Of a stretch of DNA of 36,859 nucleotides, positions 14,914-36,859 are shown piece after piece. A program made the position numbers and the translations under genes. This stretch comes from Desulfobacterales bacterium (lineage in GTDB: Bacteria > Desulfobacterota > Desulfobacteria > Desulfobacterales > JAHDSC01). Numbering within the stretch: position 1 is the first letter of the stretch; each line of letters opens with the position of its first letter. The notes below the pieces were generated by a model. The model had not been told where the DNA came from. It did not search any database and saw only the letters and a list, made by a program, of their open reading frames with translations. The stretch lies in the NCBI GenBank assembly GCA_016931455.1, contig JAFGES010000121.1, forward strand, positions 1-36,859, given 5' to 3'.

Positions 14914-17523
14914 CTATGGAATAACCACCATTATCTTGAAAGAAAACACATTATTGGTCAAAGGTGTTAACGGATTATTACCGCTATCGAGTAACCCGTA
15001 TTCCACCTGAAATTCATGAATCCCTTCAGCTGCCGATACAGAAACCTGGATGGTATAAGATATCCAAAGTTCAGTAGCAGACGTCCATCCAATACCTGTT
15101 CTGGTGTAGGTTATACCTGTTGGCAAATCGGTGACGGACTCAGTAAAATAGGCCACCTCGCTGAGGAGTTCCTCCGCGCCTGTTATCGAGCGCGTGTCAC
15201 TAATGGAACTGCCTTTACTGATTTCATAATCCGCGCCTTCATCCAAAAGCACGGTGATGGTGTGCGAGTGAGATAAATTATCCGTATTCATGGCTGTCGC
15301 GGTAATGGTATTTGATCCTGAAACAAGGGGCACTCCGGCAGCCACAAAGTTTCCTTCAGCAATGATCGCACTGATGCCGTTTACCGTAACCACTGCAGCG
15401 CTGTCGTTGATCGTACCGGAAACATCGATGGGAGAACTTTCTATAGTAGCGCCATCAGCCGGTGATGTAATGACGAGTGTGGGGGCTGAAAGGAGCGCCG
15501 GTATGGTGGCTGCCGATTTCATATGAACCAGATAGGCTTCACTGTTAAAGATATTGAATTGTACACCCGATGGAAAACCGCTGTCATTAACCGTCGTTTC
15601 AAATGCACCGGTTGACTTGTTAAACCGCTGGATACTGACGGCCTCGATTCCGCTGCCGATATCGCTGAGCAGATCATATGAAGAATAGCCATTGGGCATG
15701 CAGGAGATCGATACAATATTAAACCCTTCGGAGAGTGAAACAGGATTAATGCTGACAGGGCCCGTGATAGAGACGGTTTTATCCGCATTCATGTAAACGA
15801 TATATCCTTCGCCATCCGTGATAGTGAATTCATCACCACTTGCCGCTCCGTTTTCATAATAGGTCGTTTCGTATATACCTGTTGCAGTGTTATATCTCTG
15901 GATGCTTACGATTTCCGTTTCATCGCCTAATTCGTTTAAAAGATCGTAAGACGTATATCCTGTGGGGACACTCACCGGATAGCCGACAATATTTATCCCT
16001 TTTGTCAGATGGACATCCGGCGCCATCGGGTCTGTACCGCCATCAAATTCTCCCTGGTTGGTAATGCCGTCAAAATCCATATCTTCAAGATTGTCCGGAA
16101 TTCCGTCTCCGTCGGAATCAGCAGAAAGTGGATTGGTTCCTAAGGTATTGATTTCATAATCATCGGTAATTCCGTCATTATCATCATCATCGTCACAGGC
16201 ATCACCCCACTGGTCACCGTCGGTATTGATCTGATCGGAATTGGGAATATCCGGGCAATTATCAGAGAGATCTGGGACTCCATCGCCATCGGTGTCTGTT
16301 TCCAGCATGGATGTGTAGATAGCCAGTATGGAAACGGCTGTGTCATATGCATTATTATTCCAACTGCCGTTTGATTCCTGTTGGGACAGCAGATAGGCAA
16401 GGGTATTCTGCACCTCCGTGGCTGAAAGCTCTACATTGGCGATGGCCGTGTAAACCAGGGCTGTTTCATAAATGGTACTGGTTCCTTCAGAGCCAAATCC
16501 ATTATCTGCATTTTGCTGCGTTTTGAGCCAGGCAATGCCGTTGCCAATAACGGATTCCAGATCAAAGCTTTCCGCGGATGTTTCCAGGGCCATAAGAACC
16601 CTAGCTGTCAAGTAAATATTGCTGTCCGACCCTTTGCTCAGTCCCCATCCACCATCAATATTTTGGGCTGCTATAAGATAAGCAACTGGATTTACAAGGG
16701 CAGATGAATCATATCCACCTGATGTGAGTGATATCTGTAAGGAATAGGTGCTTGTTGCGTTGCCGTATATTTGAATTCGTCTTATACCGGGTTCAATCGT
16801 AATTCCCTCTGCGTTTAGGTATGTGGACGATGCGATGGGGCCCCATGTATAATACGTCGATGAATCATTTGGAAAAAGAATGAAGTTAATGCTGCCGGAT
16901 ATATCTGAAACAAGTATTTGGAAGTTTGAAGCATCTGCCGGATAATCAAGAGAAAATTCCTGGGTTTCACCGGCAGTTATGGTTTTATTAAGGATAAGCA
17001 AACCCTTTGGAACGGACGTAAAGCTCATCGCATTTAGTGCCAGTGATGTATCAAGGCAGTTAGTGGAATAGCCTTCTGCCGGCCCCCATCCGCCTTCAGG
17101 ATAATTGGGGGTAGTATTGTCAGTTTCACCTGGATTCTGTCCAGCCAATAACTCATCTATCAGTGAAGTAACATCAGATCCTTCCTGAGCGAGTACAGCT
17201 ATCTTTCTGGCCAGATAATCATTATTTGGCGTTGTGGTATTGTTTAGAAAACTGATTGCATTGTTATATTTATCGCCTAACGAGGAGACCTTTTTTAAAA
17301 TATCAGCTACAACCGTAGTATCTCTGAGTTCAGTATTTTCGGAATTCCCCCAGCTGCCGGATGGATTCTGATTTGACATCAGCCATGAAATGCCGTTATT
17401 TATTTCCTCCATTTGGGCAGATGCCGTGAACGGCGAAAATGACAGGAGGATTGAAAAAAATAGGACAGCGGTGATGCTTATAGCCCTGGAATGTGCTGTT
17501 CTATCTGATATGTTATTTTTCAT
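14914..17523 (-). CDS. Exported protein with cyclase-fold repeats, TSP3 repeats and paired GxN[IL]V domains, 869 aa
   Basis: A signal peptide ends near TASA (residue 36). Residues 37-405 hold repeated alpha-toroid units with QW-like motifs (WLMSNQNPSGSWG, LIAAQNIDGGWG, WLKTQQNADNGFG, LLSQQESNGSW), as in the terpenoid cyclase/prenyltransferase fold; no cyclase DxDD motif was seen, so this is likely a binding scaffold. Residues 411-500 are Asp-rich calcium-binding TSP3-like repeats (DTDGDGVPDLSDNCPD). Two copies of an about 80-residue domain follow (GINIVGYP near 508, GFNIVSIS near 597), each with SYDLL and SIQR[YF]. An Ig-like segment starts at TSPADGATIESS (about 683). The C-terminal about 100 residues are beta-rich. 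It is secreted or surface-bound; the function is unknown. Confidence 0.85.
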   Translation of the reverse strand: MKNNISDRTAHSRAISITAVLFFSILLSFSPFTASAQMEEINNGISWLMSNQNPSGSWGNSENTELRDTTVVADILKKVSSLGDKYNNAISFLNNTTTPNNDYLARKIAVLAQEGSDVTSLIDELLAGQNPGETDNTTPNYPEGGWGPAEGYSTNCLDTSLALNAMSFTSVPKGLLILNKTITAGETQEFSLDYPADASNFQILVSDISGSINFILFPNDSSTYYTWGPIASSTYLNAEGITIEPGIRRIQIYGNATSTYSLQISLTSGGYDSSALVNPVAYLIAAQNIDGGWGLSKGSDSNIYLTARVLMALETSAESFDLESVIGNGIAWLKTQQNADNGFGSEGTSTIYETALVYTAIANVELSATEVQNTLAYLLSQQESNGSWNNNAYDTAVSILAIYTSMLETDTDGDGVPDLSDNCPDIPNSDQINTDGDQWGDACDDDDDNDGITDDYEINTLGTNPLSADSDGDGIPDNLEDMDFDGITNQGEFDGGTDPMAPDVHLTKGINIVGYPVSVPTGYTSYDLLNELGDETEIVSIQRYNTATGIYETTYYENGAASGDEFTITDGEGYIVYMNADKTVSITGPVSINPVSLSEGFNIVSISCMPNGYSSYDLLSDIGSGIEAVSIQRFNKSTGAFETTVNDSGFPSGVQFNIFNSEAYLVHMKSAATIPALLSAPTLVITSPADGATIESSPIDVSGTINDSAAVVTVNGISAIIAEGNFVAAGVPLVSGSNTITATAMNTDNLSHSHTITVLLDEGADYEISKGSSISDTRSITGAEELLSEVAYFTESVTDLPTGITYTRTGIGWTSATELWISYTIQVSVSAAEGIHEFQVEYGLLDSGNNPLTPLTNNVFSFKIMVVIP

Positions 17524-18516: not shown

Positions 18517-19194
18517 TCAATTAGCAATTCCCCAAACGCTACTTTCATTACTTTTAAAAAAAGTAAACCTTTCACCATCAAGATTCACTTTAACCTCCCA
18601 TCCCTCCTCCCTTTTCTTTATTGAATCGATTCTCAGTGAAGATTCGGCCAGTTTGACAATATAAGGCCGTCCTAGTATTTTGGGTATAGGTATCACGGAA
18701 GGGTCGGAGGATATCAAACCGGTTTCTTTCTTTTTCTCAGTACCTATCGTTTCACCGACAGACGTCGTTAAATCTATTTCAAAAAAGCGTATGCTGAATC
18801 CTTCAACATAAGCAAGCGCAACAATCTTGCCTGATATCTCATCTGAAAAAATAAATCCTTTGGGAAATTGTTGCGGTGAAATTATTTTAACGGACTTTTC
18901 CCAGACGCGGTAAGTCTGATTGCTTTTTATACTCATTACATCTAAAAAAAGTGTCATATCGAATATATGCTTTTTATCCCTATCAGGCGTATCTTCAAGT
19001 GATTTAATTATTCGTTTTAGACTTAAGATTCTTTCCTTACTTATTTTTTTAGTAGTATATTCTTCAATCATGTTTTTGCCTTGTACGTCTGAGGAAGAAA
19101 AACCAGAATCAATAAGTATGATAAAATGAACATAACAGATTATGAAAGATAAAAATAAAAGCAATTTGAATGTACGCATATCCAAATTCTCCAT
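18517..19194 (-). CDS. Small membrane-anchored or exported partner of the giant upstream protein, 225 aa
   Basis: I recognise no family. An N-terminal hydrophobic segment (FKLLLFLSFIICYVHFIILI) is a signal peptide or signal anchor; the rest is soluble and charged, with a beta-rich C-terminal half ending in VWGIAN. The ATG at 19194 overlaps the stop of the upstream 1931-residue gene by one base (TAATG), so translation is probably coupled. A second ATG at 19179 has GGAG 9 bases upstream and gives the cleaner signal sequence MRTFKLLLFLSF, so the protein may be 220 residues. Position and coupling make a dedicated partner role likely; immunity, chaperone or anchoring are all possible. Confidence 0.75.
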   Translation of the reverse strand: MENLDMRTFKLLLFLSFIICYVHFIILIDSGFSSSDVQGKNMIEEYTTKKISKERILSLKRIIKSLEDTPDRDKKHIFDMTLFLDVMSIKSNQTYRVWEKSVKIISPQQFPKGFIFSDEISGKIVALAYVEGFSIRFFEIDLTTSVGETIGTEKKKETGLISSDPSVIPIPKILGRPYIVKLAESSLRIDSIKKREEGWEVKVNLDGERFTFFKSNESSVWGIAN

Positions 19195-22100
19195 TATGGG
19201 ATAATAAATGTTGTTTCTATTACAGCAGGGTTATTTTTCTTGACGAACCAAGCTGAGGTCCCCATGTATGTGCCAGCAGTCGCAAAGCCGTCCAAAGAGT
19301 TGTTCTCCCATGAGGCTTGATCGGCAAAAGGTCCTGTACCGTATGACGGGTCATAGTAGTTACCACCCCAAAGAACTATGAAATGATTGTAGAAGGCATC
19401 TGGCGGATCAGGGTTGCCTTGACCAGGGGCTCCAGACTGATCGTTTGCATCTGTGTACATCACGTAAACATACGGCGCAGTTCCGGGGGATACACCAGTT
19501 CCGATAAATATCCAATTTTTTACAAGAAATAGGTCGGTCATTGGGCTTGTTTTTTCTACAATCGTTATTTTATTTGACCCCGTGATGCGTTGTACTTTCA
19601 GACAATCGATAAAAAACTCAGCCCAAGAGCCGCACTGCCCGTTGCCATCTTTCAATAAATCTGCGGTATTGGTCGCCGTTGCCGATTGAGGCAGCCAATA
19701 TTTCAATTGGGTTCCGTCTATTCGTTTTACGATACGGTCTGAGAATTCGGCCCATATCCCAGTGACGACATCGCTACTTGGAGTACCGTCTTTTCCGCGT
19801 GCTTTGTCACAGCCGATATGAACAACTGTATGAAAAACGGTAACCGACGGATCAGGATCATTGAGGGTAACATAAACCTGGTGTTTTGTCGTTCCAACCT
19901 CAAGAAAATTCGCAGCTGAATTTGGTGCAACATACCAAACGAGATCCAAAGTGCTGGTTACTGTCGAATCGAAGATATCGATTTTATTGACAAAGGCATC
20001 GGCAGCCTCAACGCTAATTATAGTCAGCTCATTTCCTGACAGGTTCGCTGTGGTCTCTGGAATATCCAGGCTACTGTTGCCGTCCCCTTTAATTTTTACC
20101 GAACCGGTAAACGCCGACGGCGGGTCAACGATCATCTTGACCGAGACTTTCATTCTGGTATTCCGTGTAAAACAAACAGGGTATTTGTTATCACCGGAAT
20201 CGTCGTTATCCCCGTCAAGCGGCGAAGAATTGTCTTCCCAATGCGGGTTAGTCAGTGGGTTATTGGTGTAGTTGCCGCTTCCATCATCTTTGGCGATAGG
20301 ATGATAATTTGTGCCACCGAACCATACTGCCTTAAGTTGGACCTGAACGACTGTCACCTTAACCTGGAAATGATCCGTGCTTCCAGAGGAGGGCAGGACC
20401 CTGACCACGATCTCCCCAGGCGTATCCTTCTTTATTTGAGCTGAAAGTTTTCCAGATGTTCCATCCAGATTCAGAGAGCCTGATACCTTCTCAATTATCC
20501 AATCTGAAGGTAAGTCGCTCTCTGAAACGCTGGGATTCGTTTCAACAGTTATATTGACAGTGCCGGTATCTTTTCTGTACACATAAAGCGTCTTAAGATT
20601 AGCTTCAATGGTTTTATCACCATCTTCAACAAAATTAGCGGCATCGTCGCTATCTCCCGCTTTAATGGAGACTACTCCCACAACAACCTCCACTTCATAT
20701 TGGACTTCTCCAGATTCCAAACTCCCATTATTATCAACATCTGTTCCAGCCTTAACAACAAACTTCCTATCCGGATTTTCTGCGGTGGGCGCCAGGGTTA
20801 TGTCAATATTGCCCATCTCAAATGTGCCACTTAAATTTGTTGCCGCGTCTCCCGTGACCGTCCATAATACATGCTTTCTAAACTTCGGTTTATCATTATC
20901 TATATCAGGATCTAATGTAATCACAGTACTCCCTAATGTATTCTCAATGATCCACAGTTTGTAAGAAGGGGTCGATTCGTTCACGGTGACAGAGACGGAC
21001 GAGTTGTTCTTATCGGATACTTTAAGCTCATCAAATTCGATGAAGTGTACGTTCAGCTTGTGCGTAACTTCACTGCTTCCGAGGGATCCATTGTCGTCTT
21101 GGTCTACTCCTGCTTTTACAACAAAATTGTTATTTCCTAAAATGTTGGATTCGTCGATCGTGACATTGACCATAGCACTCGATCCGAAATCTCCATTGCT
21201 CGGGATAGCGTCATTGCCGTCGATTTCCCAGTAGACGCGTGCACGCTCAGCAGCAGTATCCGGATTTATGGTCGCAGTGATCTCAAGGTTCGCTTCGTGC
21301 GCAGATGTTTCACCGACATAAAGATCAGGCACCGTGCTTATATCCGTTGCGGTTTCCGTGTTTGCCGGATGATTTTTATCGCGGACCTCAATTTGCTCCA
21401 ACCCGACAACCACAACCTTAATCTCAAAAGACTTTGAATAACCGGCGCATGGCATCATCTCAACAATCAGCTCACCAACTATATCTTTCTTAACAGTCGC
21501 AGAAAGTTTTCCGGTCGAAGCAAGCGTCAATGATCCAGATCCGGCTCTCTTCCTAATATTGTCCCAACTTGCCGGCAGTTCGGCTACCGAAACTGATGGA
21601 TCTGTCTCAACGGTTATATCTACAACCCCGGTATCACTTCTTGCCACATAAATCGTGTTTGTGCCCGTGACGGACGAGCTTGGATCTACGTCTTCCTTCT
21701 CATTCGAGCCGTCTTCTGCTTTGATGCTCTTAACGTCAATGACCTTCAAACATTTCTTGGCATCGGTGGAACCGTAGGTATTTGTTACCTCCACCTTACT
21801 CGCCAGATCTCCCCCAACTGTTCCCTTGAATTCCGTACTGGCTGCATTGTCTGGAGTATAGGTTCCGTCTCCGCTTCCAAAAAGGCATCCCATGCTCCAG
21901 GATTTTTCCCATTTATAAGTTGCTGATGGTGGTGCACTAGGCGTAAATTTGGTTTCCAGTGTGATGGTGTCACAATCTGCGATACATTTTTCACCATCAG
22001 GAGTGTCTATCTCAACCTCAAATACAACAAATTTCCTTTCCGGATTATTGTCCGCACCGGCATAGAAACTGTAGTCACCTGCGGAATAGGGGTAGGCCCA

Positions 22101-24989
22101 CCAGTGCGGCCTGAAAATCCGTCTATCGGGTGTCGGTGATGTGCTACCATCCTCGTAGGTTAATGTGTATTCAACCTCGAACCAAAGCTGTGGCGAGTTA
22201 TACGGGAAATATTCATAGTCCTTATCTGGCCTGCTGATAAATGCTGTAATACCTGTTATTTTCTTGAGGCTAAAAAACCAAGCTGTCCAGGTATCTACCG
22301 TGGCGCCCCCCGCATGACCACCGGAAATGATATATCCTGCAGCGCCTGTCGCGGGATTCATGTCAATGTAGCCGGTCCCGGTCCACTCCAAATAGGTAAT
22401 ACTGTCTCGCGGCACCGTCACTTCATGCCCATTAAGAACAGCATTGTATATGGCGTGCTCTACAGACGAGGAAAGATTAAGCGAGCTGTAAATCGTTCCG
22501 ATGTTGCCGCTGTTAAACACGAAAATCGGTATTCCCGCATCACTTGAAAGCTCAAGGATTTTAATTGTGGAAACCGCTTCTTCATTATACATGTCTTCAA
22601 ATATTCTGTTCTCTGATATCGAACCATCAGCGCCACTAAGCACCATGAACTTCTTATTTTTGCTATCATCACCGTTTACCGCAAAAGGCCCCACAATACA
22701 GCGATCAGCATCAACTACGAGACCTTTTGGTTCGAAGGTGTTCGGGGTACCAAAAGAAAATGTTACCAGGATAGTATCTTCAACAATTGCCTCTGAAACG
22801 TCCTTGGTAACGACCATCTGCATGGTCTTAGCCACCTCTTCATCGTACTGTTCTATCCGGCTCAAATAACCCATAGCCGTTTGCCAGAGCCTACCACCGT
22901 ACCAATCATCAGTTGTGGGTGTGCCTGCGGTAGAGATAGGCTCAAAAATGTCGGAACTAATTCGTCCGGTATCAACACCCACCGCCTGATAGGTTCCGGC
23001 AATGATCGAATTGCTGACCACCGGCATCTCATTTGTTTCACCACCGGGAGTCGTAAAGTGCATATCAGAGCTGTGAGTGACCCCCATTCCGATGCTGCCT
23101 ATTCCGACGGCCATGTCAGTTCCATCAATCTTCAGTACCGGCTTTAAATTGACCAGATATGGTGGGGTATCATAAAGGTCACCATATGAGTCAATCACAT
23201 CCTGGTCGGCTTGGGTGGCGGCAATATAGGATATCGTTATTCGTTTTCCTGCAATCTCGGGAAGGTTGGCGATGTAATCGATAAATGTGGTACCACCGTT
23301 GTAAAGGTGAAAGCGCATTTTGTAGCGTTTATTGTCCGGTATTTCGGCAAAATCATCGTCGATGGTAAGGATTTCAAACGGAAGTGATCCGGGAATAAAT
23401 CCTAGATCTTCGGTCAGGATCTCCCGTGTTCTTACAATGTCTTCATAGGCCATTTCAGGATAATTGATGGTCAGATAGTCCTGTATTTGCTGCATCATAA
23501 GCTCCACCGGGCTGGGCTCATGAAAATTCGTGATATAATCATCAATAAAGGCCTCCGGATCAAAACCCATCTCTTTCAGGATATCCAATCCGGTTTGATA
23601 GGTATAGCTCTTAAAACTGGGGTCCATGGGCACCCACATTTTGCCGGTGTTATCTGCCGGGATACCCCTATAATTGGTGTAGGGGATATAGGCTTCCACC
23701 CAGACGTGTTTGAACCGGACGGCGACTACCCCGCCGTCATCCATAATATTGACTCCTTCCATACCCACCGTTGTCAGAATACTTCCAGCTGTAGCAGCGT
23801 CTTCCACGCCAAGCCAATTCATGGCTTTATTCACCGGCAGTTCAACTGTACCTCGAACATATCTGGCAGGAATATTTGCAGCCCGGAGCAATGCAATAAG
23901 AAGGGAGCTTAGGTCATAATCATTCCCCGATTCCTGGTTCAAGGTTTCCTGTGAGCCCTTTCGGGACCCCAGATACGGCTCAAAATCCATGTTGTTACGA
24001 ACATATTGATAAATTTTAAGTGGTGAATTATTAAGGTCGGCAGCAAGGTCGATAATTTCCTGAGTGATCTGAACATCAATTGTTGGGTCGAGATCTTCAG
24101 TAGTCGGCGGGCCGGAAACAGCCATGGATGTGACGACACTTTCTTCCACACCTAAGTTTGCTGCAGATGGGGCTGATTTTATAATGGTTTTCCAATCCTG
24201 TTTTTCCATTTTCGTCGGTGCCATGGATGGGACTACTTTTGTATCCCTCTCCAGGGTTGGGGCTTCTAATATCCTCATACCATGAGGCAATGCATTGCTA
24301 AGCAAAGGTGGTTCTTTAATGGTTTTATAAGTCTCAAGAAAATCGCTAATTCGCTGCATTAAGGCTGGGACTTCTTCCAATGCATTTTCTTGAACCAATT
24401 GCGCTAATTCATCAAAATATTCCAATAAGATACGGACATTTTTATTATGACCTTCCACCATCCTGTTATGCCGTTCCAAAATGGTATTTGAAAAGCCTTC
24501 GCTTTTGCATCTTTGCTCTGTTTCTGAAAAAATGAGTTGAAGTGCCGCATCCGATTCTTCGATCAGCCTTTTTTTGTCCAGGAGATCTGCAAGTTCCTCT
24601 GAAAAGGCCTGACCTTGCTGCTGTTTTTGTGAAACCTTTTGGGCGAGATTCTCAGCAGCATGAACAGCATGGGCAAAATCTTTTTGAACAGCATATTTCT
24701 TTTTATCGCCCTTGTTTTTTTTGAGCCATCGTTCCGAAGGAGTTTCCGTCAATCCAGCCTTGATCTGATCCCGCATTTGACGGGTCAATCGGTCAATTTC
24801 CTCCTTTGACCTCTTTCCGCCGGACTTTTCAGTAAGTTCCGTGACTGATATGCTTAGATTATCCGCATAAAGAAGGTTAGGTGCCATGAATCCAATGAGG
24901 GTAAAAACATGCAGTAGAATTAAAAGAGGAGAGGTTTTTATTTTGGACATTCGATTGCTTAGTCTTGAGAGTTGGTGCCAAGTTTCCAT
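19194..24989 (-). CDS. Giant exported protein with two transglutaminase-fold domains and Ig-like repeats, 1931 aa
   Basis: A signal peptide ends near LLYA. Residues 45-250 are helical and Gln/Glu-rich. A transglutaminase-like domain (about 320-470) has LLIALLRAANIPARYVRGTV, then HVWVEAYIP and WVPMDPSFKSY, but the usual catalytic Cys site reads GNDYD, so it lacks the nucleophile. Beta-rich Ig-like repeats follow: type A (about 1090-1200), type B twice (about 1200-1438, each with a DxDxNGSL calcium-type loop) and type A again (about 1440-1550). The C-terminus (about 1775-1931) is a second Cys-protease/transglutaminase-like fold with GNGQCGSWAEFFIDCLK, NHFIVLWGG and YYDPSYG supplying Cys, His and Asp. 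I chose the ATG at 24989 because GGGAG lies 5 bases upstream; a GTG at 24995 touches that site. It is probably surface or secreted. Confidence 0.85.
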   Translation of the reverse strand: METWHQLSRLSNRMSKIKTSPLLILLHVFTLIGFMAPNLLYADNLSISVTELTEKSGGKRSKEEIDRLTRQMRDQIKAGLTETPSERWLKKNKGDKKKYAVQKDFAHAVHAAENLAQKVSQKQQQGQAFSEELADLLDKKRLIEESDAALQLIFSETEQRCKSEGFSNTILERHNRMVEGHNKNVRILLEYFDELAQLVQENALEEVPALMQRISDFLETYKTIKEPPLLSNALPHGMRILEAPTLERDTKVVPSMAPTKMEKQDWKTIIKSAPSAANLGVEESVVTSMAVSGPPTTEDLDPTIDVQITQEIIDLAADLNNSPLKIYQYVRNNMDFEPYLGSRKGSQETLNQESGNDYDLSSLLIALLRAANIPARYVRGTVELPVNKAMNWLGVEDAATAGSILTTVGMEGVNIMDDGGVVAVRFKHVWVEAYIPYTNYRGIPADNTGKMWVPMDPSFKSYTYQTGLDILKEMGFDPEAFIDDYITNFHEPSPVELMMQQIQDYLTINYPEMAYEDIVRTREILTEDLGFIPGSLPFEILTIDDDFAEIPDNKRYKMRFHLYNGGTTFIDYIANLPEIAGKRITISYIAATQADQDVIDSYGDLYDTPPYLVNLKPVLKIDGTDMAVGIGSIGMGVTHSSDMHFTTPGGETNEMPVVSNSIIAGTYQAVGVDTGRISSDIFEPISTAGTPTTDDWYGGRLWQTAMGYLSRIEQYDEEVAKTMQMVVTKDVSEAIVEDTILVTFSFGTPNTFEPKGLVVDADRCIVGPFAVNGDDSKNKKFMVLSGADGSISENRIFEDMYNEEAVSTIKILELSSDAGIPIFVFNSGNIGTIYSSLNLSSSVEHAIYNAVLNGHEVTVPRDSITYLEWTGTGYIDMNPATGAAGYIISGGHAGGATVDTWTAWFFSLKKITGITAFISRPDKDYEYFPYNSPQLWFEVEYTLTYEDGSTSPTPDRRIFRPHWWAYPYSAGDYSFYAGADNNPERKFVVFEVEIDTPDGEKCIADCDTITLETKFTPSAPPSATYKWEKSWSMGCLFGSGDGTYTPDNAASTEFKGTVGGDLASKVEVTNTYGSTDAKKCLKVIDVKSIKAEDGSNEKEDVDPSSSVTGTNTIYVARSDTGVVDITVETDPSVSVAELPASWDNIRKRAGSGSLTLASTGKLSATVKKDIVGELIVEMMPCAGYSKSFEIKVVVVGLEQIEVRDKNHPANTETATDISTVPDLYVGETSAHEANLEITATINPDTAAERARVYWEIDGNDAIPSNGDFGSSAMVNVTIDESNILGNNNFVVKAGVDQDDNGSLGSSEVTHKLNVHFIEFDELKVSDKNNSSVSVTVNESTPSYKLWIIENTLGSTVITLDPDIDNDKPKFRKHVLWTVTGDAATNLSGTFEMGNIDITLAPTAENPDRKFVVKAGTDVDNNGSLESGEVQYEVEVVVGVVSIKAGDSDDAANFVEDGDKTIEANLKTLYVYRKDTGTVNITVETNPSVSESDLPSDWIIEKVSGSLNLDGTSGKLSAQIKKDTPGEIVVRVLPSSGSTDHFQVKVTVVQVQLKAVWFGGTNYHPIAKDDGSGNYTNNPLTNPHWEDNSSPLDGDNDDSGDNKYPVCFTRNTRMKVSVKMIVDPPSAFTGSVKIKGDGNSSLDIPETTANLSGNELTIISVEAADAFVNKIDIFDSTVTSTLDLVWYVAPNSAANFLEVGTTKHQVYVTLNDPDPSVTVFHTVVHIGCDKARGKDGTPSSDVVTGIWAEFSDRIVKRIDGTQLKYWLPQSATATNTADLLKDGNGQCGSWAEFFIDCLKVQRITGSNKITIVEKTSPMTDLFLVKNWIFIGTGVSPGTAPYVYVMYTDANDQSGAPGQGNPDPPDAFYNHFIVLWGGNYYDPSYGTGPFADQASWENNSLDGFATAGTYMGTSAWFVKKNNPAVIETTFIIP

Positions 24990-25275
24990 TATCACTCCCG
25001 TTTTATCTTGTAATTCAGTTTTCAGGCAATGGCTGGAGCCGTTATTTAGCTATAAAAATAATTAGTTGGAAACCGCCAAAATTTTAGCACGGTGGTCTTG
25101 CTGGAATAAAAAACTCCCGGCAGAAGAAAGATTCCCTCTCAGAGGTTGAGATTGCAGTACTTGAAATTTTATGCCGTGGTGTCATTGCCAAGCAAGGATG
25201 TTTTTAAAAAAGCATGGTTAGTAAAAAACAAAAAACAACTCTAAAGTCAATTGAAAAATAGGCCTTGAAAAAGAT

Positions 25276-26696: not shown

Positions 26697-28067
26697 ATGT
26701 CAAGACTGAATCGGATGATCCACGGAATTTCCGTTAAACACCTTTGGTCCACCATCTTATTCATCTTCTGTATGTATCTTTCGACCTCTTTGTCTCTATC
26801 TGCCGACGTCGATGTCTACGGCAACGGCACCTATACGGCAGACCGCCTTATCGTCCTAATCTATGCTGATATTTTCCAGAATAATACGGACAAAAGTCTG
26901 CTCAGTTTCGGGGTCAAACTAACCTATAATGCCGCAAATCTCACGGAAACGCAAACCCAACTAAATGATGCCATCTGGTATTTCGGTAATACAACTCTCA
27001 AACACCCCTGTCCCAATTGCATCCAAAAAACAAATGGTGAAATTATCATTCTTGGGGGAAAACTGGACACCGGCAATCCTATCGAGGGAGTCAGGGGATC
27101 AAAAATTCTTCTAGGAAGCATCACTTTCGATAGTAGCAATACTACGGAACCATCACTGGCCCTCGGTTTCGGAAAAGGGGGAAACTACAAAAATTTCGTG
27201 GCGACAGACGGCAGCATTCTAGATGATATCACCCAGCCGGAATCAGGAGTTGCCTTCGGCGAGATCAATCTGTCCCCGGAGATCGATAGTGATGGAGATG
27301 GCCTGCCTGATTCAGTGGAAATTCTCGGAGGCACCGATCCCAACCTTGCAGACACCGATAGCGACCGTATTCCCGACGGCTTGGAAGATACCAATCACAA
27401 CGGCGGATTCGATGCCGGTGAAACCGATCCCCGCAAAAAAGATACGGACGGCGACGGCTTTGAAGACGGCATTGAAGACGCCAACCAGAACGGTATAGTA
27501 GATGCGGGGGAAACAGATCCCACAGACCAGTCGAACCATCCGGCCGCATTTATTGAGCTTGGGAAAGGATTCAATATAGTTTGTATTCCCAAGGACCTCT
27601 CGAATACAACTGCCGAAGCCTTTCTTAAGGAGTTCGGAACCTCCGAAGAAATAGAGCGTGTCATGGTCTGCGATGATGAAGCCGATCTTTTTACTATTTT
27701 GATTCCGGAAGCGGTAAACCCCAATCCCGATTTTATCAAAGGAGATGGCCAAATCGTGCTTTCAAAAACCCACAAGGTTTTGCTGTACCTCAGCCAAATG
27801 ACTTGTACAAGCCTAAACCTGCATAGCGGCTTTAACTTGGTAGGAACCACGGGAACAAATATCCCGCAAGGATACAGCGCTTACGACCTCTTGAGCGCTT
27901 TGGGAAGTGAGAAGATCAAAAGCATTCAGCGATATGTTTCCGAAACGGGTTTATTTGAATCCGCCGGATTCGATCAGGATGGAAATGTCACAGGTATAGA
28001 CTTCCCAGTGACTCCTGGTGAAGGATATTTCATCTTCATGGCTCAGGATGGAACTTTAAACTTTTGA
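26697..28067 (+). CDS. Exported cohesin-like/TSP3 protein with paired GxN[IL]V domains, 456 aa
   Basis: A signal peptide ends near SLSA (residue 36). Residues 37-190 form a beta-sandwich-like region (LIVLIYADIFQNNTDKSLLS, FGVKLTYNAANLT, KILLGSITF) resembling cohesin or CBM-like domains, with a CPNC pair at 105-108. Residues 197-280 are Asp-rich TSP3-type calcium repeats (DSDGDGLPDSVEILGGTDP, DTDGDGFEDGIEDANQNG). Two copies of the shared about 80-residue domain follow: GFNIVCIP (291) with EEIERVM, and GFNLVGTT with YSAYDLLSALG and IKSIQRY. The start has AGGAG 8 bases upstream. The next gene encodes a dockerin-bearing GH17 protein, which makes the cohesin reading attractive. The cohesin call is by pattern only. 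Confidence 0.8.
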   Translation: MSRLNRMIHGISVKHLWSTILFIFCMYLSTSLSLSADVDVYGNGTYTADRLIVLIYADIFQNNTDKSLLSFGVKLTYNAANLTETQTQLNDAIWYFGNTTLKHPCPNCIQKTNGEIIILGGKLDTGNPIEGVRGSKILLGSITFDSSNTTEPSLALGFGKGGNYKNFVATDGSILDDITQPESGVAFGEINLSPEIDSDGDGLPDSVEILGGTDPNLADTDSDRIPDGLEDTNHNGGFDAGETDPRKKDTDGDGFEDGIEDANQNGIVDAGETDPTDQSNHPAAFIELGKGFNIVCIPKDLSNTTAEAFLKEFGTSEEIERVMVCDDEADLFTILIPEAVNPNPDFIKGDGQIVLSKTHKVLLYLSQMTCTSLNLHSGFNLVGTTGTNIPQGYSAYDLLSALGSEKIKSIQRYVSETGLFESAGFDQDGNVTGIDFPVTPGEGYFIFMAQDGTLNF

Positions 28068-28069
28068 CA

Positions 28070-28092
28070 ACCATTTTAGCTTGAAATGGTTA
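28070..28092 (+). other. Intercistronic hairpin
   Basis: AACCATTT (28070-28077) pairs exactly with AAATGGTT (28085-28092) across a 7-base loop, starting 3 bases after the cohesin-like gene. No T-run follows, so it is more likely an RNA processing or stability element than a terminator. Confidence 0.4.
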
Positions 28093-28135
28093 TCAAATAG
28101 CCTTTAGAACATAGCCTTTAATAGTAGAGGAAAAA

Positions 28136-30541
28136 ATGAAACAAATTAGAATTCTACTTGGCGTAGTTTTTACAATGCTCTTCCTGTCGGTTAACATAGT
28201 TGAGGGTGAGGATGTACTCTATAAAACTCACGGAATGAATTTTAGTCCTTACATCGATGCTGGTGAAGATCCCGAGAAAGGAGGTACGCAAATTACTGAT
28301 CAGGAGCTGGAAGAAAGGCTGAATATTGTTGTTCCTTTTACAAAATGGATTCGGACATATGGGTGCAATGATGATCTGAAAGAAGCAGGTCAATTTTCCC
28401 ACGCCAAAGGTCTCTCGGCGGCTGTTGGAGCCTGGCTGAGCACTGATTTAACAGAGAATCAGAATCAGATTGACTGTCTTGTTGAAGCTGCGAAAGCCGG
28501 TCATGTGGATCTGGCTGTTATCGGGTGTGAAGTTTTGCTCAGGGGTGATCTAACTGAAGAACAGCTCATATCTTACATCAGACAAGTAAAAAACAGACTG
28601 GCTGAAGATCCCACTGTAGACATCCCGGTAACAACGGCCGATGTATATGGAGTTCTTCTCGCCCACCCTGCATTATTTTCCGAAGTGGATATTGTCTTTG
28701 TGAATTATTATCCTTATTGGGAGGGCTGTAAAATAGACTTAGCCATTGCTCATTTGCATAGATGGCATAATCAGATGACAAATGCAGTGGGCGGCAAAGA
28801 AGTGATCGTTTCAGAAACAGGCTGGCCAAGCTGCGGAGAGCAGATCGGTGAAGCAGTGCCTTCCCCGGAGAATGCCGGCTTCTATTTTCTGAATTTTGTA
28901 TCCTGGGCGCGTGCGAATTCGGTGAAATACTTCTATTTTGAGGCCTTAGATGAAAAATGGAAGACAAAACACGAAGGTCCCCAGGGCGCATGCTGGGGCA
29001 TTTGGGACAAAGATGGGAATTTGAAGCCGGGTATGCAGGATGTATTCGATAATAAGACAATGGGTGATAATTGGAGTAATCCTATTCCTGAAACTCCCGT
29101 CATCGATTTTCGGGCCCTCCCTGAACGAATAACGACGAATATCTCAACCTTTATCGTCGCCGGTTGGACAGATCCCAATAACGAAGTTAGACTCAATAAT
29201 ATTCCACTGCCACCTGGGACTATGGACAAAAAAGGAAATTTTGCGCTCCCTGTACCGCTTGATGAAGGTGATAATCTTTTAAACTTGGAGATTGAATCGG
29301 TGGACGGAGAATTTTTAGAAACCATTGGTAAAATCGTCTACTTTAACCAAGATCTCTCCACACGTGATAAAAGGCTCTTATACGTGAATGCGGTTTATGG
29401 GGGTGACGGCGTGCCTTCCCTGCCCGGAACGATTGTCATTGACTTGGATGGAAATACCCTCCTTGGTTTGATCAAAGACCAATATGCCGTTAATATTGCA
29501 CCGGATGGCAGCACTCTCTACATGAGTGACAAAACGGCAATGAGCACCGCTACGCATCGAGAACTGAGGTCTTTGCCTTTTTCCCAGGATATTCCCTATA
29601 ACGGCGTTATCGTTTCTCCCGATGGCTCTTATCTCTATTCTCGAAACCAGAGGCTTGATGTATCGTCAAATACCCTTTTGGAAAATTTGCCGGTAAATAT
29701 TCTGACAGGCAGTTCCTTTTCCGGAGCACCGATCCCGGGGGGTCCCTTCATTTCTGAGAACGGGAATAAAATATACTGCCGAAACAACATCATGATGATC
29801 GATACACTCGAGAATACAGCGGTTAATTTAGGTATCAGCGGGTATTTTATGAGTGATATTGCTCTCACACCGGACGGTAAAAAAATTCTTGTTATAGAGT
29901 ACAGTGATGCCGATGGCAGGGTCGACATGTATGATGCCGGTACCTACAAGTTGATAGTAACGCTGTCCGGTTTGGGTGACTTTGCGGGTGAAATGGTTTT
30001 TTCAAAAAATGGAAAAATGGCGGTTGTAGGTAGTGCTGGTAATCCTGCTTCGGCCACCAACGGTCGGATTACCGTTATAGACATTGAAAAGATGCAAAAG
30101 GTTTCACAAATCAATGTTCCTCTCGCTGATAATCTTACAACATCAGGGAATAATGAATTTTTCGTTTCTTCCGGAGAGAATGATTTATTTAGACGGTTGG
30201 GTATCGATGTTTATGTTTTGGAATCATCGGGAAATTTAAAAAGAATAAAGAGTTTCTTTTTAGGGATCAACGGTTTTATACCGTCCACCGGAGAGCCAAA
30301 GAACGATCAGATTCGGCGAATATTGTTCAAGCCTTCTGCCGGCCCGTCCGTCTGTGAAGGAGATTTTGACGGGGACAGCGATGTGGACGACTCGGACCTT
30401 GCGGTTTTTGCAGCGGATTTTGGCAGGACGGATTGTGAAACCGGAGATATCTGTGAAGGCAACTTTGATGGCGATAACGATGCAGACGGATCAGATTTAA
30501 CGATATTTGCGGCCGATTTTGGGCGTACGGATTGTCCGTAG
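28136..30541 (+). CDS. Exported GH17 beta-1,3-glucanase-like protein with beta-propeller and dockerin, 801 aa
   Basis: A signal peptide covers about residues 1-25. Residues 30-305 form a GH17-type TIM barrel: HGMNFSPYID opens it, E132 in DLAVIGCEVLLRG is the expected acid/base, VFVNYYPYW (188-196) follows, and E227 in VIVSETGWPS is the nucleophile, with the YFEALDEKWK strand after. It should act on beta-1,3-glucans outside the cell. Residues about 320-395 look Ig-like. Residues about 395-735 form a YVTN-like beta-propeller (GTIVIDLDGN, IALTPDGKKILVIEY). Residues 740-801 are two dockerin-type calcium loops (GDFDGDSDVDDSDLAVFAAD and GNFDGDNDADGSDLTIFAAD). The start has GAGG 5 bases upstream. 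It probably forms a unit with the preceding gene. Confidence 0.85.
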   Translation: MKQIRILLGVVFTMLFLSVNIVEGEDVLYKTHGMNFSPYIDAGEDPEKGGTQITDQELEERLNIVVPFTKWIRTYGCNDDLKEAGQFSHAKGLSAAVGAWLSTDLTENQNQIDCLVEAAKAGHVDLAVIGCEVLLRGDLTEEQLISYIRQVKNRLAEDPTVDIPVTTADVYGVLLAHPALFSEVDIVFVNYYPYWEGCKIDLAIAHLHRWHNQMTNAVGGKEVIVSETGWPSCGEQIGEAVPSPENAGFYFLNFVSWARANSVKYFYFEALDEKWKTKHEGPQGACWGIWDKDGNLKPGMQDVFDNKTMGDNWSNPIPETPVIDFRALPERITTNISTFIVAGWTDPNNEVRLNNIPLPPGTMDKKGNFALPVPLDEGDNLLNLEIESVDGEFLETIGKIVYFNQDLSTRDKRLLYVNAVYGGDGVPSLPGTIVIDLDGNTLLGLIKDQYAVNIAPDGSTLYMSDKTAMSTATHRELRSLPFSQDIPYNGVIVSPDGSYLYSRNQRLDVSSNTLLENLPVNILTGSSFSGAPIPGGPFISENGNKIYCRNNIMMIDTLENTAVNLGISGYFMSDIALTPDGKKILVIEYSDADGRVDMYDAGTYKLIVTLSGLGDFAGEMVFSKNGKMAVVGSAGNPASATNGRITVIDIEKMQKVSQINVPLADNLTTSGNNEFFVSSGENDLFRRLGIDVYVLESSGNLKRIKSFFLGINGFIPSTGEPKNDQIRRILFKPSAGPSVCEGDFDGDSDVDDSDLAVFAADFGRTDCETGDICEGNFDGDNDADGSDLTIFAADFGRTDCP

Positions 30542-32168: not shown

Positions 32169-35100
32169 ATGCGTCAGTATCTAATCATTGCATATATCAC
32201 CTCTTTGATCTGCTTAGGGCTATTGACGCCCGCACTTGGGGACATGGGACCGGTGTTTATAAAAGAGGTCATGTCCCGTGAAGTGTCGATTCAGGTAGGC
32301 GGGATCCAACCATCCGGCATCAAGGAAGTCTTTTCCCGCGAAGCGTCAATATTCATCAACAACGGCCCTGTAGATGCTTTCACTCAGGGAATTTCCCGGG
32401 AGCTAAGTATCGTTGTCACATCGATCCCTCCGCCGCATCAAATTACCGTACTCCAGGTGAGTCTATCTCCGACTGGAGACCGTGCTACGCTGGATTGGAG
32501 CGCCTATAACCAGTGGGCCGAAATGGACATTGTCCGTTTCGATATTTACTACACCGCTGAAGCTCCCTTTGACACCGTTCCAGCAGCAGGCTTGCAAATG
32601 ATCAGTGTACCTGGCGGAAGTACCTCGGCAACCATCGGAAACCTGCCTGAGTTCACCGATCACTATTTCGCTGTTGTTGCCGTCGACGCGCTGGGAAACT
32701 TTAATCCAGCCGTTACCTACGCTGCCGGCTACGTGTTTTCACCGGAAGTCGTCTCTCGCGAGGTTTCGCTCTTTGTTGAAAACGGATCCTACGAACAGCC
32801 GTACGCCCAATCGATTTCGCGGGAAGTATCGATATTAATAGATGTGACCCCACCTGTACCCCCCACCAACTTTTCGGCAACAGCAACGTCTACAGATGTT
32901 CGTCTGAACTGGACGCATTCGATTTCGCCGGACATCGATGCCTATCGGATTTACTGGGACAACGGGTCCGGGGTGATAAATTACAGCTCACCCTACGCGA
33001 CGGTATATTATCCGGAGAGCAGCTTTAACGCAAGCTTTTACTCGGAAGGAACCTATAAGTTCGGGATTCGGGCCGTAGACCAGGCCGGCAATGAAGAGCC
33101 GAACACCGACGTGGTGGTGACGTTTACTGTTACCGGTTTTAATCTGACGGTGAGTGTTGAGTACTCATCTTATGATCGAGGACAAAATGTCCCCATTAGC
33201 GGGACGGTCAAGTCTCAAACCGACAGCCCAATCGTAAATGTCCTTGTGGTCCTTGATGTTGAAAGAAATGGATACCGCCGTTCCTATCAAGCCTACACCA
33301 ATGCCGGCGGGCAGTTTAGTTATATTTTTCAGCCCCTTTCCAATGAGGCCGGCAGCTACACGGTTAGGGCCAATGTGTTACATGAAGGCTTGGAAAAAAA
33401 TGCAACCACCGGCTTTAACATTTTGGGTCTAATGGTTCAGCCCTTGACTTTTAACCTTTCCATGTCCATGAATTCCTCCAGGACAATTGACCTCACACTT
33501 AAGAATATAGGAAATACAGACCTGACCGATATTCAGATGGAGATTGTGGATCAAAATGCTCAGGATCCGTTAACCGGAAATATCATCGGCACTTGTCTGC
33601 TTGCCGGGCTTAACCCCGGTGCATCGGTAATTATTCCGGTTATGATTCATTCGGACCCCGGAAATCCACCCACTACCACGTCGATTCTCACATTCACCGC
33701 AAACTCTGCCGAAGGGTCCGTTGAAAGCGCAAATATTCGCGTGGACCTACATGAGGCAAAAGCCGCGCCGACCATATCTCCGGATCCGCTGATGATCGGA
33801 TTGAGCCCCCTGGATCAGATGACTAAAACAGTAACCCTAAAAAACGAAGGGTTTGCATCCATGGAAAATACCGTGGTTAGCATCGCCAACCCTGCCGTTT
33901 ATAACTGGATCTCGATTATCAACGGACAGATAGGTGTTATTGACCCTTCGGAAAGCAAAGATTTCCAGATCTTTCTTGATCCTCCCGATGATATTCAGTA
34001 CGGCATTTACGATATCCAATTGAACCTGCAATACAATGGTGAAATAATACCGATCATCCTTTCCGTGGCCATAACCTCAGCCACTGAAGGAAGTGTAGCA
34101 TTCCAGGTGTACGATGACAGAGCCAAAGCTGTAGCGGATGCCGAGGTCAACCTGATCAGCAAAGTGTTTCATGTCTACCAGACTCCTGACGGCAAAAAGG
34201 AGTATAATGACATTATTACCGCGAGAACCGATGCCGACGGCTATGTTCTTTTTGAAAGTGTGCCCACCGGCCAATATCGATACCTCATTAATGCACAAGA
34301 GCATGATCCCGGCAAAGGAGAGCTTACCGTGGAACCTGGAACCAACCAGTCTATTGAGGTGATCCTGGTGACCAATCTGGTCGGCATAGATTTTTCAGTT
34401 GTTGAAACCACTATAGAGGATGAATATAATGTAACGCTGCAAATCACTTACACTACGGATTTAATCAAACCCACCCTTTACGCCGAACCCTCATCGATAA
34501 ACCTGTCATTTTACCCGGATGAAATCTATGAAGGAACACTGACGATCACCAATACCAGTAACCACGCGCCGGTACGCGATATTCTCTTTGATGCGACGCA
34601 ACTCGACCTTGTGGATCAGGAGGTGGAGTTGGTATTTGAAAATGGAACCAAAACCTTCACGGTTGCTGAAATCGGCCCAAAAGAAAGTGTACAGGTAGCT
34701 TTTCATGCCTCCATTCCGGATGGGCCAAATGCCAGGCTTAACAGCAGGTATATGGGAAATATCCTGGTGTCCGGTAATTATACCTTTACATTGGAAGGTA
34801 AAGCCTATGAGAGCATCACCAAAACTCCTGTCCCGGTCTATTTCTGGAAACCTCAGGAGCTGAAGCTGCCTTATCTGTCTTTTGTCAACGATGAAACAGA
34901 CGGCAACCTGAACGACCTCGAGTACCGCGGGACAAGCTACAGACTCACCGTGCAGAGCAATCGAAACGAAACCTTTACATTTGACAAAGTCCCCGAAACC
35001 AATACGGATCTGAAAGCGGTGAGTCACATTATAGGTGGCTTGGATTCGCATCATATCATCAATCAGAATGAGGCCTTCTGGACGGCGGACTTTAACAGCA

Positions 35101-36859
35101 CCACACCGTTTAAGCTCAGAGGAGATTCAACGACCTTTGATATCATCGGTCTCCAAGAGGCCTTGGAAGCCAAGCTGGTAAGTGATCGAAGTGCTTTTCT
35201 CAGTTCTTCCCATTATATTGGATTTTTCGGACAGTGGGCGGACAGAGCCTATCAGGATGCTTATCTTGTGCCCATTTCCATTACCACAATCAAAGATACG
35301 GGCTATTATGGTGATTTCCCGCCTCCTGGAGGAGGCAGGGGGGGCGGCTACCCACCACCTCCTTCTCTAAACGAACATGGCGAAGTGAAAATCGAGATAG
35401 ACCAGAAGATTACGATGGAGCGGCAGGCCTTTAACGCCACCTTGAATTTGGCACCAAACGTTGATGAATTAGAAAACGTTACGGTGAATCTTAATATTCA
35501 AGATACCGGCGGAGCCGATGCCAGTTCGCTTTTCTTTGTGATCGTCACCCGCAAATCGGGAATTTCAACACTGGATGGAACCGCCGGTCTTAGCGATGCT
35601 GCCGAGATCTGTTGGCAGATCATTCCAAGCAGTGAGGCGGGAGGGGATTTGCCCGAAGGTCTGGATTATGAAATTTCCGCAACCATCGGCTATATATATG
35701 ACAGCGAATCTTTCAGCTATGAGGTTGCACCGGAAACCGTCAGGGTCCAGCCCATGCCTAAACTCATTGTGGATTATTATCTTCCCTTTGTCGTTATGGC
35801 GGATAAACCCGGCAAAATAAAAGTACACATTACCAATACAGGTGCCGGGCCTGCTAATAAACTGTTGATCTCTTCGGCACAGCCGAGGATTGTCGAAAAC
35901 TTCAATAACCTTCCCATCGACTTTGTGATCAACGGATCATCCTGCACGGCTGATGAAAGCGGCTATCAGGATGCAGTGTTGGGCATCGATTTTGGAGATT
36001 TGCAGCCGGCAGGTCAAGCCGAGGGATACTGGCTCCTTACCACCAACAGGGATGGGTTTTATATTGAATTTAATGCGGCATTTAGCCACAAAAGCTATCT
36101 CGGCATTCAATTGGATCCATTAATTCAGGAGGTGAACACGCACTTCGTGCCGGCTATCGGCGGCCGGATTACTCAGGGGGGACTCTGTTCATCCGAGGGA
36201 TATAGTGTTGAAGTTCGACAAGACCAAGAACTCAAGGGAAAAGATATCGTCAATGCCTCCGGAGCTTATTTTATTTCGGATCTTGAGGCCGGTGATTACC
36301 TTTGGGTGGTAAAAGATGCAAGCGGGACAACTCTGACGAGCAGAGACATTACGGTTGTAAAAGGCCAGCCGACAGCAACTATCAACGAAGATATTTTTTA
36401 TGATACCGAGCCGGACGGTTTGCGTGATTGCTGGGAGCAGAATTGGTTCAAAAATCTGGACCAGGGACCGGATGATGATTATGACAATGACGGTCTCACC
36501 AATAAACAGGAACATGACCTGCTTCCAAACGCGACCGATCCCACAAAGGCCGATTCTGACGGGGATACGTATAGTGACGGAGATGAGGTGGCGGCCGGTA
36601 CTGATCCTTTGAACAGGTTCTCATATCCCATTCACTTGAAAAAAGGTTATAACCTGATTTCTATTCCTGAAGATGTGTCAGACCTGCCGGATCTCAAAGA
36701 CTGGCTGCCGATCATAGGAGACAGCAGTGAAATAGAAAAAGTAATGGGGTACAATCCTCAAACGGGAAAATATATCACCCTATTTCCTGAATCTTCGGAA
36801 AATCCTCAATATGTTTTGCAAGGCGGAGAGGGGCTTATTGTGTATGCAAAACAGGATAA
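32169..36859 (+). CDS. Very large exported FN3/SREVS-repeat protein (partial, runs off window end)
   Basis: The frame is open for 1563 codons without a stop and continues past the last base, so it is 3'-truncated by the window. A signal peptide ends near PALG (residue 24). Five SRE[VLA]S motifs start at residues 36, 56, 76, 196 and 217; the first three are exactly 20 apart. Fibronectin type III-like domains follow (LDWSAYNQWAEMDIVRFDIY; RLNWTHSISPDIDAYRIYW with GIRAVDQAGNEEPN). The middle is a series of Ig/CARDB-like beta domains and a carboxypeptidase-regulatory-like stretch (RTDADGYVLFESVPTGQYRY). Near the end are Asp-rich TSP3-like repeats (DADSDGDTYSDGDE-type; seen as DSDGDTYSDGDEVAAGTDP) and one GYNLISIP domain copy with EIEKVMGYNPQTG. 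It is probably cell-surface or secreted. Confidence 0.85.
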   Translation, partial: MRQYLIIAYITSLICLGLLTPALGDMGPVFIKEVMSREVSIQVGGIQPSGIKEVFSREASIFINNGPVDAFTQGISRELSIVVTSIPPPHQITVLQVSLSPTGDRATLDWSAYNQWAEMDIVRFDIYYTAEAPFDTVPAAGLQMISVPGGSTSATIGNLPEFTDHYFAVVAVDALGNFNPAVTYAAGYVFSPEVVSREVSLFVENGSYEQPYAQSISREVSILIDVTPPVPPTNFSATATSTDVRLNWTHSISPDIDAYRIYWDNGSGVINYSSPYATVYYPESSFNASFYSEGTYKFGIRAVDQAGNEEPNTDVVVTFTVTGFNLTVSVEYSSYDRGQNVPISGTVKSQTDSPIVNVLVVLDVERNGYRRSYQAYTNAGGQFSYIFQPLSNEAGSYTVRANVLHEGLEKNATTGFNILGLMVQPLTFNLSMSMNSSRTIDLTLKNIGNTDLTDIQMEIVDQNAQDPLTGNIIGTCLLAGLNPGASVIIPVMIHSDPGNPPTTTSILTFTANSAEGSVESANIRVDLHEAKAAPTISPDPLMIGLSPLDQMTKTVTLKNEGFASMENTVVSIANPAVYNWISIINGQIGVIDPSESKDFQIFLDPPDDIQYGIYDIQLNLQYNGEIIPIILSVAITSATEGSVAFQVYDDRAKAVADAEVNLISKVFHVYQTPDGKKEYNDIITARTDADGYVLFESVPTGQYRYLINAQEHDPGKGELTVEPGTNQSIEVILVTNLVGIDFSVVETTIEDEYNVTLQITYTTDLIKPTLYAEPSSINLSFYPDEIYEGTLTITNTSNHAPVRDILFDATQLDLVDQEVELVFENGTKTFTVAEIGPKESVQVAFHASIPDGPNARLNSRYMGNILVSGNYTFTLEGKAYESITKTPVPVYFWKPQELKLPYLSFVNDETDGNLNDLEYRGTSYRLTVQSNRNETFTFDKVPETNTDLKAVSHIIGGLDSHHIINQNEAFWTADFNSTTPFKLRGDSTTFDIIGLQEALEAKLVSDRSAFLSSSHYIGFFGQWADRAYQDAYLVPISITTIKDTGYYGDFPPPGGGRGGGYPPPPSLNEHGEVKIEIDQKITMERQAFNATLNLAPNVDELENVTVNLNIQDTGGADASSLFFVIVTRKSGISTLDGTAGLSDAAEICWQIIPSSEAGGDLPEGLDYEISATIGYIYDSESFSYEVAPETVRVQPMPKLIVDYYLPFVVMADKPGKIKVHITNTGAGPANKLLISSAQPRIVENFNNLPIDFVINGSSCTADESGYQDAVLGIDFGDLQPAGQAEGYWLLTTNRDGFYIEFNAAFSHKSYLGIQLDPLIQEVNTHFVPAIGGRITQGGLCSSEGYSVEVRQDQELKGKDIVNASGAYFISDLEAGDYLWVVKDASGTTLTSRDITVVKGQPTATINEDIFYDTEPDGLRDCWEQNWFKNLDQGPDDDYDNDGLTNKQEHDLLPNATDPTKADSDGDTYSDGDEVAAGTDPLNRFSYPIHLKKGYNLISIPEDVSDLPDLKDWLPIIGDSSEIEKVMGYNPQTGKYITLFPESSENPQYVLQGGEGLIVYAKQD

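Follow-up and report, generated by a model that had tools for sequence, protein, structure and literature searches.

Can two neighbouring genes, one encoding a cohesin-like domain and the other a dockerin-bearing enzyme, form a pair outside a cellulosome, and what would such a pair be attached to? The question is raised by P0001 and P0002, encoded on contig JAFGES010000121.1 of a Desulfobacterales bacterium (assembly GCA_016931455.1); the stretch of 36,859 nucleotides that was analysed is referred to here as the window. The two genes are likely to encode a non-cellulosomal cohesin–dockerin pair, a pairing supported by the neighbourhoods of related genes in other genomes. Their open reading frames (ORFs) are adjacent, 68 bp apart on the same strand, as an earlier reading of the DNA without database searches (the sequence-only reading) had stated, and no terminator-like site was listed in the gap. 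P0001 and P0002 would be exported and co-transcribed, with P0001 acting as a one-cohesin receptor ('mono-scaffoldin') and the dockerin tail of P0002 plugging into its cohesin. A family GH17 β-1,3-glucan hydrolase or transglycosylase would then be held on whatever the TSP3 repeats and C-terminal modules of P0001 bind.

The N-terminal domain of P0001 was established, at moderate model confidence, to have a cohesin fold. The best AlphaFold2 (AF2) model contains nine strands of at least three residues, as in the nine-stranded cohesin jelly roll, with a mean predicted local distance difference test (pLDDT) score of 69.4 and a predicted template modelling (pTM) score of 0.70; the input was a three-row alignment, and the remaining four models averaged pLDDT 39–45. 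The top 29 Foldseek matches of this model in the PDB are cohesin or cohesin-complex entries (best 1.0e-6). Using VIA, the top 19 matches are cohesins, with 6kgc at Z 10.3 (root-mean-square deviation, rmsd, 3.3 over 126 residues), and the best non-cohesin entry is an adhesin domain at Z 8.9. The cohesin of Archaeoglobus fulgidus (2xdh) is matched at Z 9.1, with an rmsd of 3.5 over 122 residues. A fold clearly different from cohesin was looked for in both searches and was not seen, so that the cohesin-like β-sandwich first proposed from the letters alone stands.

Sequence homology of this domain to cohesins is observed through its relatives. A PDB sequence search with P0001 produced no match, and searches of its own genome with Pfam Cohesin and Pfam Dockerin also produced none; taken by themselves, these nulls would count against a cohesin and a dockerin here, but they were overturned by the results with relatives and profiles. 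When 297 genomes of the phylum were searched with the domain, relatives of it were found in three genomes besides its own. When Pfam Cohesin was searched against the 12 dockerin-positive genomes, the top match (30.6 bits, over the cut-off) was the relative in genome G038; the relative in G136 (22.1 bits, below the cut-off) was tied for second at 2.1e-4 with a match elsewhere in G038. PF00963 was matched at E ≤ 1 by four of the nine members of the P0001 cohesin family (best 2.5e-7), and the family profile matched PDB cohesins weakly (0.07).

The catalytic domain of P0002 is matched by PF00332 (3.9e-9; 37 bits against a cut-off of 28.2) and by the GH17 glucanosyltransferase 4wtp (2.2e-31 over residues 57–300), with E132 and E227 aligned with the conserved catalytic glutamates of the latter. 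The related entry 4wtr carries an alanine at the second glutamate position and is taken to be a nucleophile mutant. P0002 differs from 4wtp, the source of which is presumably Rhizomucor, in being bacterial and multidomain, with a propeller and a dockerin. A β-1,3-glucan substrate is plausible from the GH17 homology. The propeller region matches the S-layer protein 1l0q (7.2e-12).

At the C-terminus of P0002, two calcium-loop-plus-helix repeats lie within about 60 residues. This copy alone misses Pfam Dockerin_1, and a profile built from 18 related segments matches solved dockerins (2y3n_B, 2.3e-11), the top PDB matches being 8x39 and 8x3a (∼8e-12), which are named as a serine protease. The profile scores the window copy at 2.1e-23, the copy itself being one of its 18 rows. 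PF00404 was matched at E ≤ 1 by 16 of the 18 members. At one end of the family are copies of the window type, in which each repeat lies between cysteines, and at the other are classical type I sequences. The GH17 enzyme, the β-propeller and the two-loop dockerin that the sequence-only reading had assigned to P0002 are therefore all borne out.

Only one cohesin and two dockerins were found by single-sequence and profile searches of the window genome (G000), an assembly of 3.38 Mb with a completeness rating of 97%. Of the two dockerins, the one outside the window is on contig 58 (L002, 135–1244), 3′ of the reading frame of what we take to be an M28-like peptidase but in a different frame, which would reflect a frame break or an assembly error. 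A scaffoldin with several cohesins is missing from this inventory, since P0001 holds a single cohesin and the genome has one match, and the GH17 protein and the M28-like peptidase region stand in place of many dockerin-bearing plant-cell-wall enzymes. A typical cellulosome was rejected on these counts, in agreement with the earlier placing of the pair outside a classical cellulosome. The genome search for other dockerins thus returned one more, so that the notion of a minimal two-part system fits the single detected cohesin but is too narrow with respect to the dockerins.

Both modules also occur together in other genomes. Single-sequence queries from the window matched a cohesin in four and a dockerin in 12 of the 297 genomes, all four of the former being among the latter (hypergeometric probability 1.6e-6, or 3.9e-5 without the window genome, uncorrected for kinship between genomes). 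Profiles, with cohesin matches counted at E ≤ 0.01, extended these numbers to eight and 32, with both in five. Among 146 closer relatives the cohesin family was found in 15 genomes, the dockerin family in 45 and both in 14 (1.6e-7; the genomes are related and many of the pairs are one cohesin–dockerin fusion protein).

Physical linkage is a better test of cohesin–dockerin pairing than co-occurrence. The neighbourhoods of 21 loci were compared: nine encode a cohesin with a PEP-CTERM-like tail (cohesin-PEP), eight encode a cohesin–dockerin fusion only and four, including the window, encode neither. Locus L071 (G185), whose 3.9-kb contig encodes two weak cohesin-like domains but neither a PEP tail nor a dockerin, was excluded, as were weak matches in G209 and G120 (297-genome profile search) and in G399, G363 and G341 (146 relatives). 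A separate, non-cohesin dockerin ORF lies within 10 kb in all nine cohesin-PEP loci, the nearest lying 46–958 bp away from one of the cohesin genes there, and the chance expectation is ∼0.21 over the eight loci of known genome size. Distances were taken to the nearest cohesin gene. For one ORF of L042, and in L072 at 380 bp, this gene is a cohesin–dockerin fusion; the cohesin-PEP gene of L072 is ∼1.2 kb from its nearest dockerin ORF. Neither profile contains a row from five of the nine loci (L109, L111, L120, L122 and L123). TIGR02595 scores the PEP tails of L041 and L042 (8128) over its cut-off and that of L070 below it, the second protein of L072 weakly matches other PEP-type models only and the tails of the other five were assigned by eye and from hydropathy. 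One class of related cohesin genes, cohesin-PEP, thus shows a strong tendency to adjoin dockerin genes. In one such locus, in G038 (L041, 5426–17298), seven dockerin-bearing ORFs follow a single cohesin-PEP gene (one is only 63 residues long and one other ORF is interspersed); three of the seven are similar to each other and, by eye, repeat-rich and β-helix-like.

The dockerins on cargo genes differ from those in cohesin–dockerin fusions. Ala-Ala or Ser-Ala occupies repeat positions 17–18 (a numbering presumably that of type I dockerins) in 25 of 39 cargo repeats versus two of 18 fusion repeats, and a cysteine precedes the loop in 32 of 39 versus four of 18, the totals being restricted to repeats that conform to the pattern searched for. 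The P0002 dockerin is of the class that is common on cargo genes and resembles those beside cohesin-PEP genes.

What the P0001 receptor attaches to is less clear. Its calcium repeats, noted from the sequence, are TSP3 repeats (PF18884, over the cut-off). The CglD and MtsD adhesin families were considered as whole-protein homologs and rejected, as they match the TSP3 stretch only. A structure was predicted for the C-terminal modules (pLDDT 72.8, pTM 0.52), but Foldseek gave nothing at E ≤ 0.001, the best VIA match was at Z 3.8 and the ∼85-residue module had no reported match in Pfam. A cassette of TSP3 repeats and this module is observed in three ORFs of the contig (14914–17523 on the reverse strand, and 26697–28067 and 32169–36857 on the forward strand), and the module also occurs on contig 123 (L006). 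Its partners elsewhere are unrelated, namely a squalene-cyclase-like domain, and fibronectin and carboxypeptidase-regulatory domains. In an 869-residue protein about 190 further residues come after the cassette, which is thus not a terminal sorting signal there. The probable anchoring module of the sequence-only reading therefore finds no support as yet, since the fold searches gave no clear match and the modules lie mid-protein elsewhere.

Other routes to the cell surface were also sought. Hydropathy indicates no hydrophobic C-terminal membrane segment in P0001, which all nine cohesin-PEP proteins have; by eye neither a lipobox nor a PEP-CTERM signal is seen in P0001, and no PEP-CTERM family matches it. 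PF09721 (exosortase) has no matches in the window genome, whereas it is present in all four tested relatives with related cohesins (G038, G136, G193 and G249). Exosortase anchoring of P0001 was rejected because neither an exosortase nor the C-terminal segment was detected, and holding of the GH17 protein on the cell surface, as proposed earlier, is not supported by any recognizable anchor. The P0001 tail may bind an envelope or matrix component.

Several observations weigh against the pairing of P0001 with P0002. P0001 itself is matched by no curated cohesin model, Pfam Cohesin included, so that profile searching for cohesins succeeds with relatives of the domain (in G038 over the cut-off) and fails with P0001. 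In a cohesin tree the nine cohesin-PEP domains are split from 17 other sequences by a branch with support 98/93 (three sequences being long-branched), and the P0001 cohesin groups with the cohesin–dockerin fusions and not with the cohesin-PEP proteins; it is nearest by path to that of L115, a locus whose 20-kb stretch contains no separate dockerin ORF. Because the subgroup associations of the P0001 cohesin and the P0002 dockerin differ in this way, the two modules may have separate histories. A separate dockerin ORF was found within 10 kb in two of the eight cohesin–dockerin loci and in one of the four others, this one being the window itself, where among the loci without a PEP-type cohesin at least L113 and L043 end at contig ends. 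L111, L123 and the nearest (upstream) ORF of L072 have only weak or half-length dockerin matches. Across genomes, this cohesin family is unmatched in 27 of the 32 and 31 of the 45 dockerin-profile genomes; in G294, 24 dockerin matches are accompanied by no cohesin-profile match (best Pfam Cohesin 0.004), and in G414, 84% complete, two strong dockerins occur without a cohesin match. Three genomes with weak cohesin-profile matches (G120, G185 and G209), and also G341, lack a dockerin match, and G297, the sole genome marked 'same family', has neither module. The dockerin genomes without a cohesin, G294 and G414 among them, and the differing subgroups favour an explanation in which each module is genuine without being the binding partner of the other. 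The tail of P0002 would then be a dockerin-like, calcium-stabilized domain at the C-terminus, which the cysteines on either side may clasp, and P0001 a separate adhesin that is a neighbour by chance. This is unlikely in view of the dockerin ORF less than 1 kb from a cohesin gene in every cohesin-PEP locus, the co-occurrence in two genome samples and the one cohesin found in this genome.

If the modules do bind, the partner or the place could still differ. By analogy with methanotrophic archaea and their sulfate-reducing partners, the P0002 dockerin or the P0001 cohesin might engage a module of a partner cell; two papers propose cohesin/dockerin proteins as consortium adhesins (PMC10553843, PMC9012536), and a locus with the same two modules is present in G038, which may be such a partner. 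A local pair suffices, however, and P0002 brings an enzyme and not an adhesin as cargo, which makes contact between organisms very unlikely here. A free secreted complex, in which the pair binds and the P0001 tail attaches to extracellular polysaccharide or matrix, would agree with the lack of a C-terminal membrane segment, of a visible lipobox and of a detected exosortase, and with the mid-protein position of the modules elsewhere. The tail could just as well bind the surface of its own cell, and this explanation, somewhat unlikely as a separate one, overlaps with the favoured pairing, which leaves the tail ligand open. The favoured explanation, a non-cellulosomal P0001–P0002 pair, would also place the locus beside a recurrent related form in which a cohesin with a fused PEP-CTERM-like tail is encoded next to dockerin cargo genes, the window lineage, with no exosortase detected, having a different receptor tail. 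More tentatively, and slightly more doubtful than probable, Gram-negative bacteria of the Deltaproteobacteria type may share a 'socket and plug' display made up of an exosortase-sorted cohesin, often a cohesin–dockerin adaptor, and dockerin cargo encoded next door (proteases, β-helix-like proteins, propellers and GH17 enzymes); the window pair would then be an exosortase-less derivative with its receptor refitted with the TSP3–module cassette.

Cellulosomes are built on a multi-cohesin scaffoldin that carries cellulases. The window pair shares the two folds of the clostridial type I complex (e.g. 1ohz and 2vn5) and an enzyme with a dockerin plug, but differs from it in that one cohesin, no multi-cohesin scaffoldin and two dockerins were found in the genome, with a GH17 enzyme in place of cellulases. 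Some cellulosomes also employ adaptor scaffoldins and anchoring scaffoldins, the latter attached through SLH domains. In L042, L070, L072, L109 and L111 a cohesin–dockerin gene and a cohesin-PEP gene lie side by side with dockerin cargo, an arrangement that may be analogous to adaptor and anchor; the relatives have exosortase-type tails rather than SLH domains and one cohesin per protein. Non-cellulosomal cohesins and dockerins are said to have been described by Peer et al. in 2009. As in such pairs, no multi-cohesin scaffoldin was found in the window genome; unlike them, the receptor carries TSP3 repeats and two locally shared modules, and its neighbour is a GH17–propeller–dockerin enzyme.

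In methanotrophic archaea, cohesin/dockerin proteins without cellulosomes are discussed as proteins that may serve in contact or attachment (PMC9012536 and PMC5244752), and putative cohesin/dockerin adhesins are described in the sulfate-reducing partners Hot-Seep1, Seep-SRB1g and some Seep-SRB2 (PMC10553843). In Hot-Seep1, according to the latter paper, adjacent cohesin and dockerin domains are among the genes possibly important in the partnership, and in the window the two modules likewise lie side by side. Non-cellulosomal cohesins and dockerins as proposed adhesins of syntrophic sulfate reducers are therefore already known, and the window pair differs in make-up. Neither PEP-CTERM nor exosortase occurs in the main text of PMC10553843 (2023), and the portion of PMC5244752 available treats exosortase and dockerin as separate traits of archaeal methanotrophs. 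Literature that mentions dockerins together with PEP-CTERM or exosortase, or both cohesins and dockerins in sulfate reducers, showed no link between a cohesin and an exosortase tail in its accessible parts.

Coordinates of the features of the locus are collected in Table 1. Immediately 3′ of P0002 (30542–30704), inverted copies of a GGTTGGGTT-type repeat are seen by eye, perhaps a repetitive extragenic palindrome-like (REP-like) element. Near the locus, a 1933-residue protein with a transglutaminase-like core is encoded on the reverse strand at 19194–24995. A reverse transcriptase gene (RVT_1) lies at 1694–2908; no group II intron RNA was recognized, as no Rfam family reached its gathering score within the window.

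Table 1. Features of the P0001–P0002 locus, in window coordinates
Feature	Residues	Position	Strand	Basis
P0001, 456 aa: signal peptide, cohesin domain, TSP3 repeats and two ∼85-aa modules		26697..28067	+	
Putative Sec signal peptide of P0001	1–36	26697..26804	+	Sequence, hydropathy
Cohesin-fold domain of P0001	∼37–193	26805..27275	+	Predicted fold, relatives
TSP3 calcium-binding repeats of P0001	∼197–282	27285..27542	+	PF18884 over cut-off; extent by eye
Two ∼85-aa modules of P0001	286–456	27552..28064	+	Common to ORFs 14914–17523 (−) and 32169–36857 (+) and to contig 123
Intergenic gap between P0001 and P0002, 68 bp		28068..28135	+	
P0002, 801 aa: putative signal peptide, GH17, β-propeller and dockerin		28136..30541	+	
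GH17 catalytic domain of P0002	∼30–305	28223..29050	+	PF00332, 4wtp, aligned E132/E227
β-Propeller region of P0002, outer limits approximate	∼405–735	29348..30340	+	1l0q match at residues 448–592; weak propeller families
Two-repeat dockerin of P0002, cysteines flanking each repeat	740–800	30353..30535	+	Repeats read directly, family profile

Non-cellulosomal cohesins and dockerins have been counted in many genomes, and their ligands and attachment are mostly untested. A small locus consisting of a receptor and a tagged enzyme, together with its exosortase-tailed version in relatives, provides a short list of directly testable pairs and a hypothesis for how Gram-negative anaerobes may keep enzymes or adhesins outside the cell. 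If true, a sorting pathway would also be linked to the adhesins of cohesin/dockerin type that have been proposed for syntrophic sulfate reducers.

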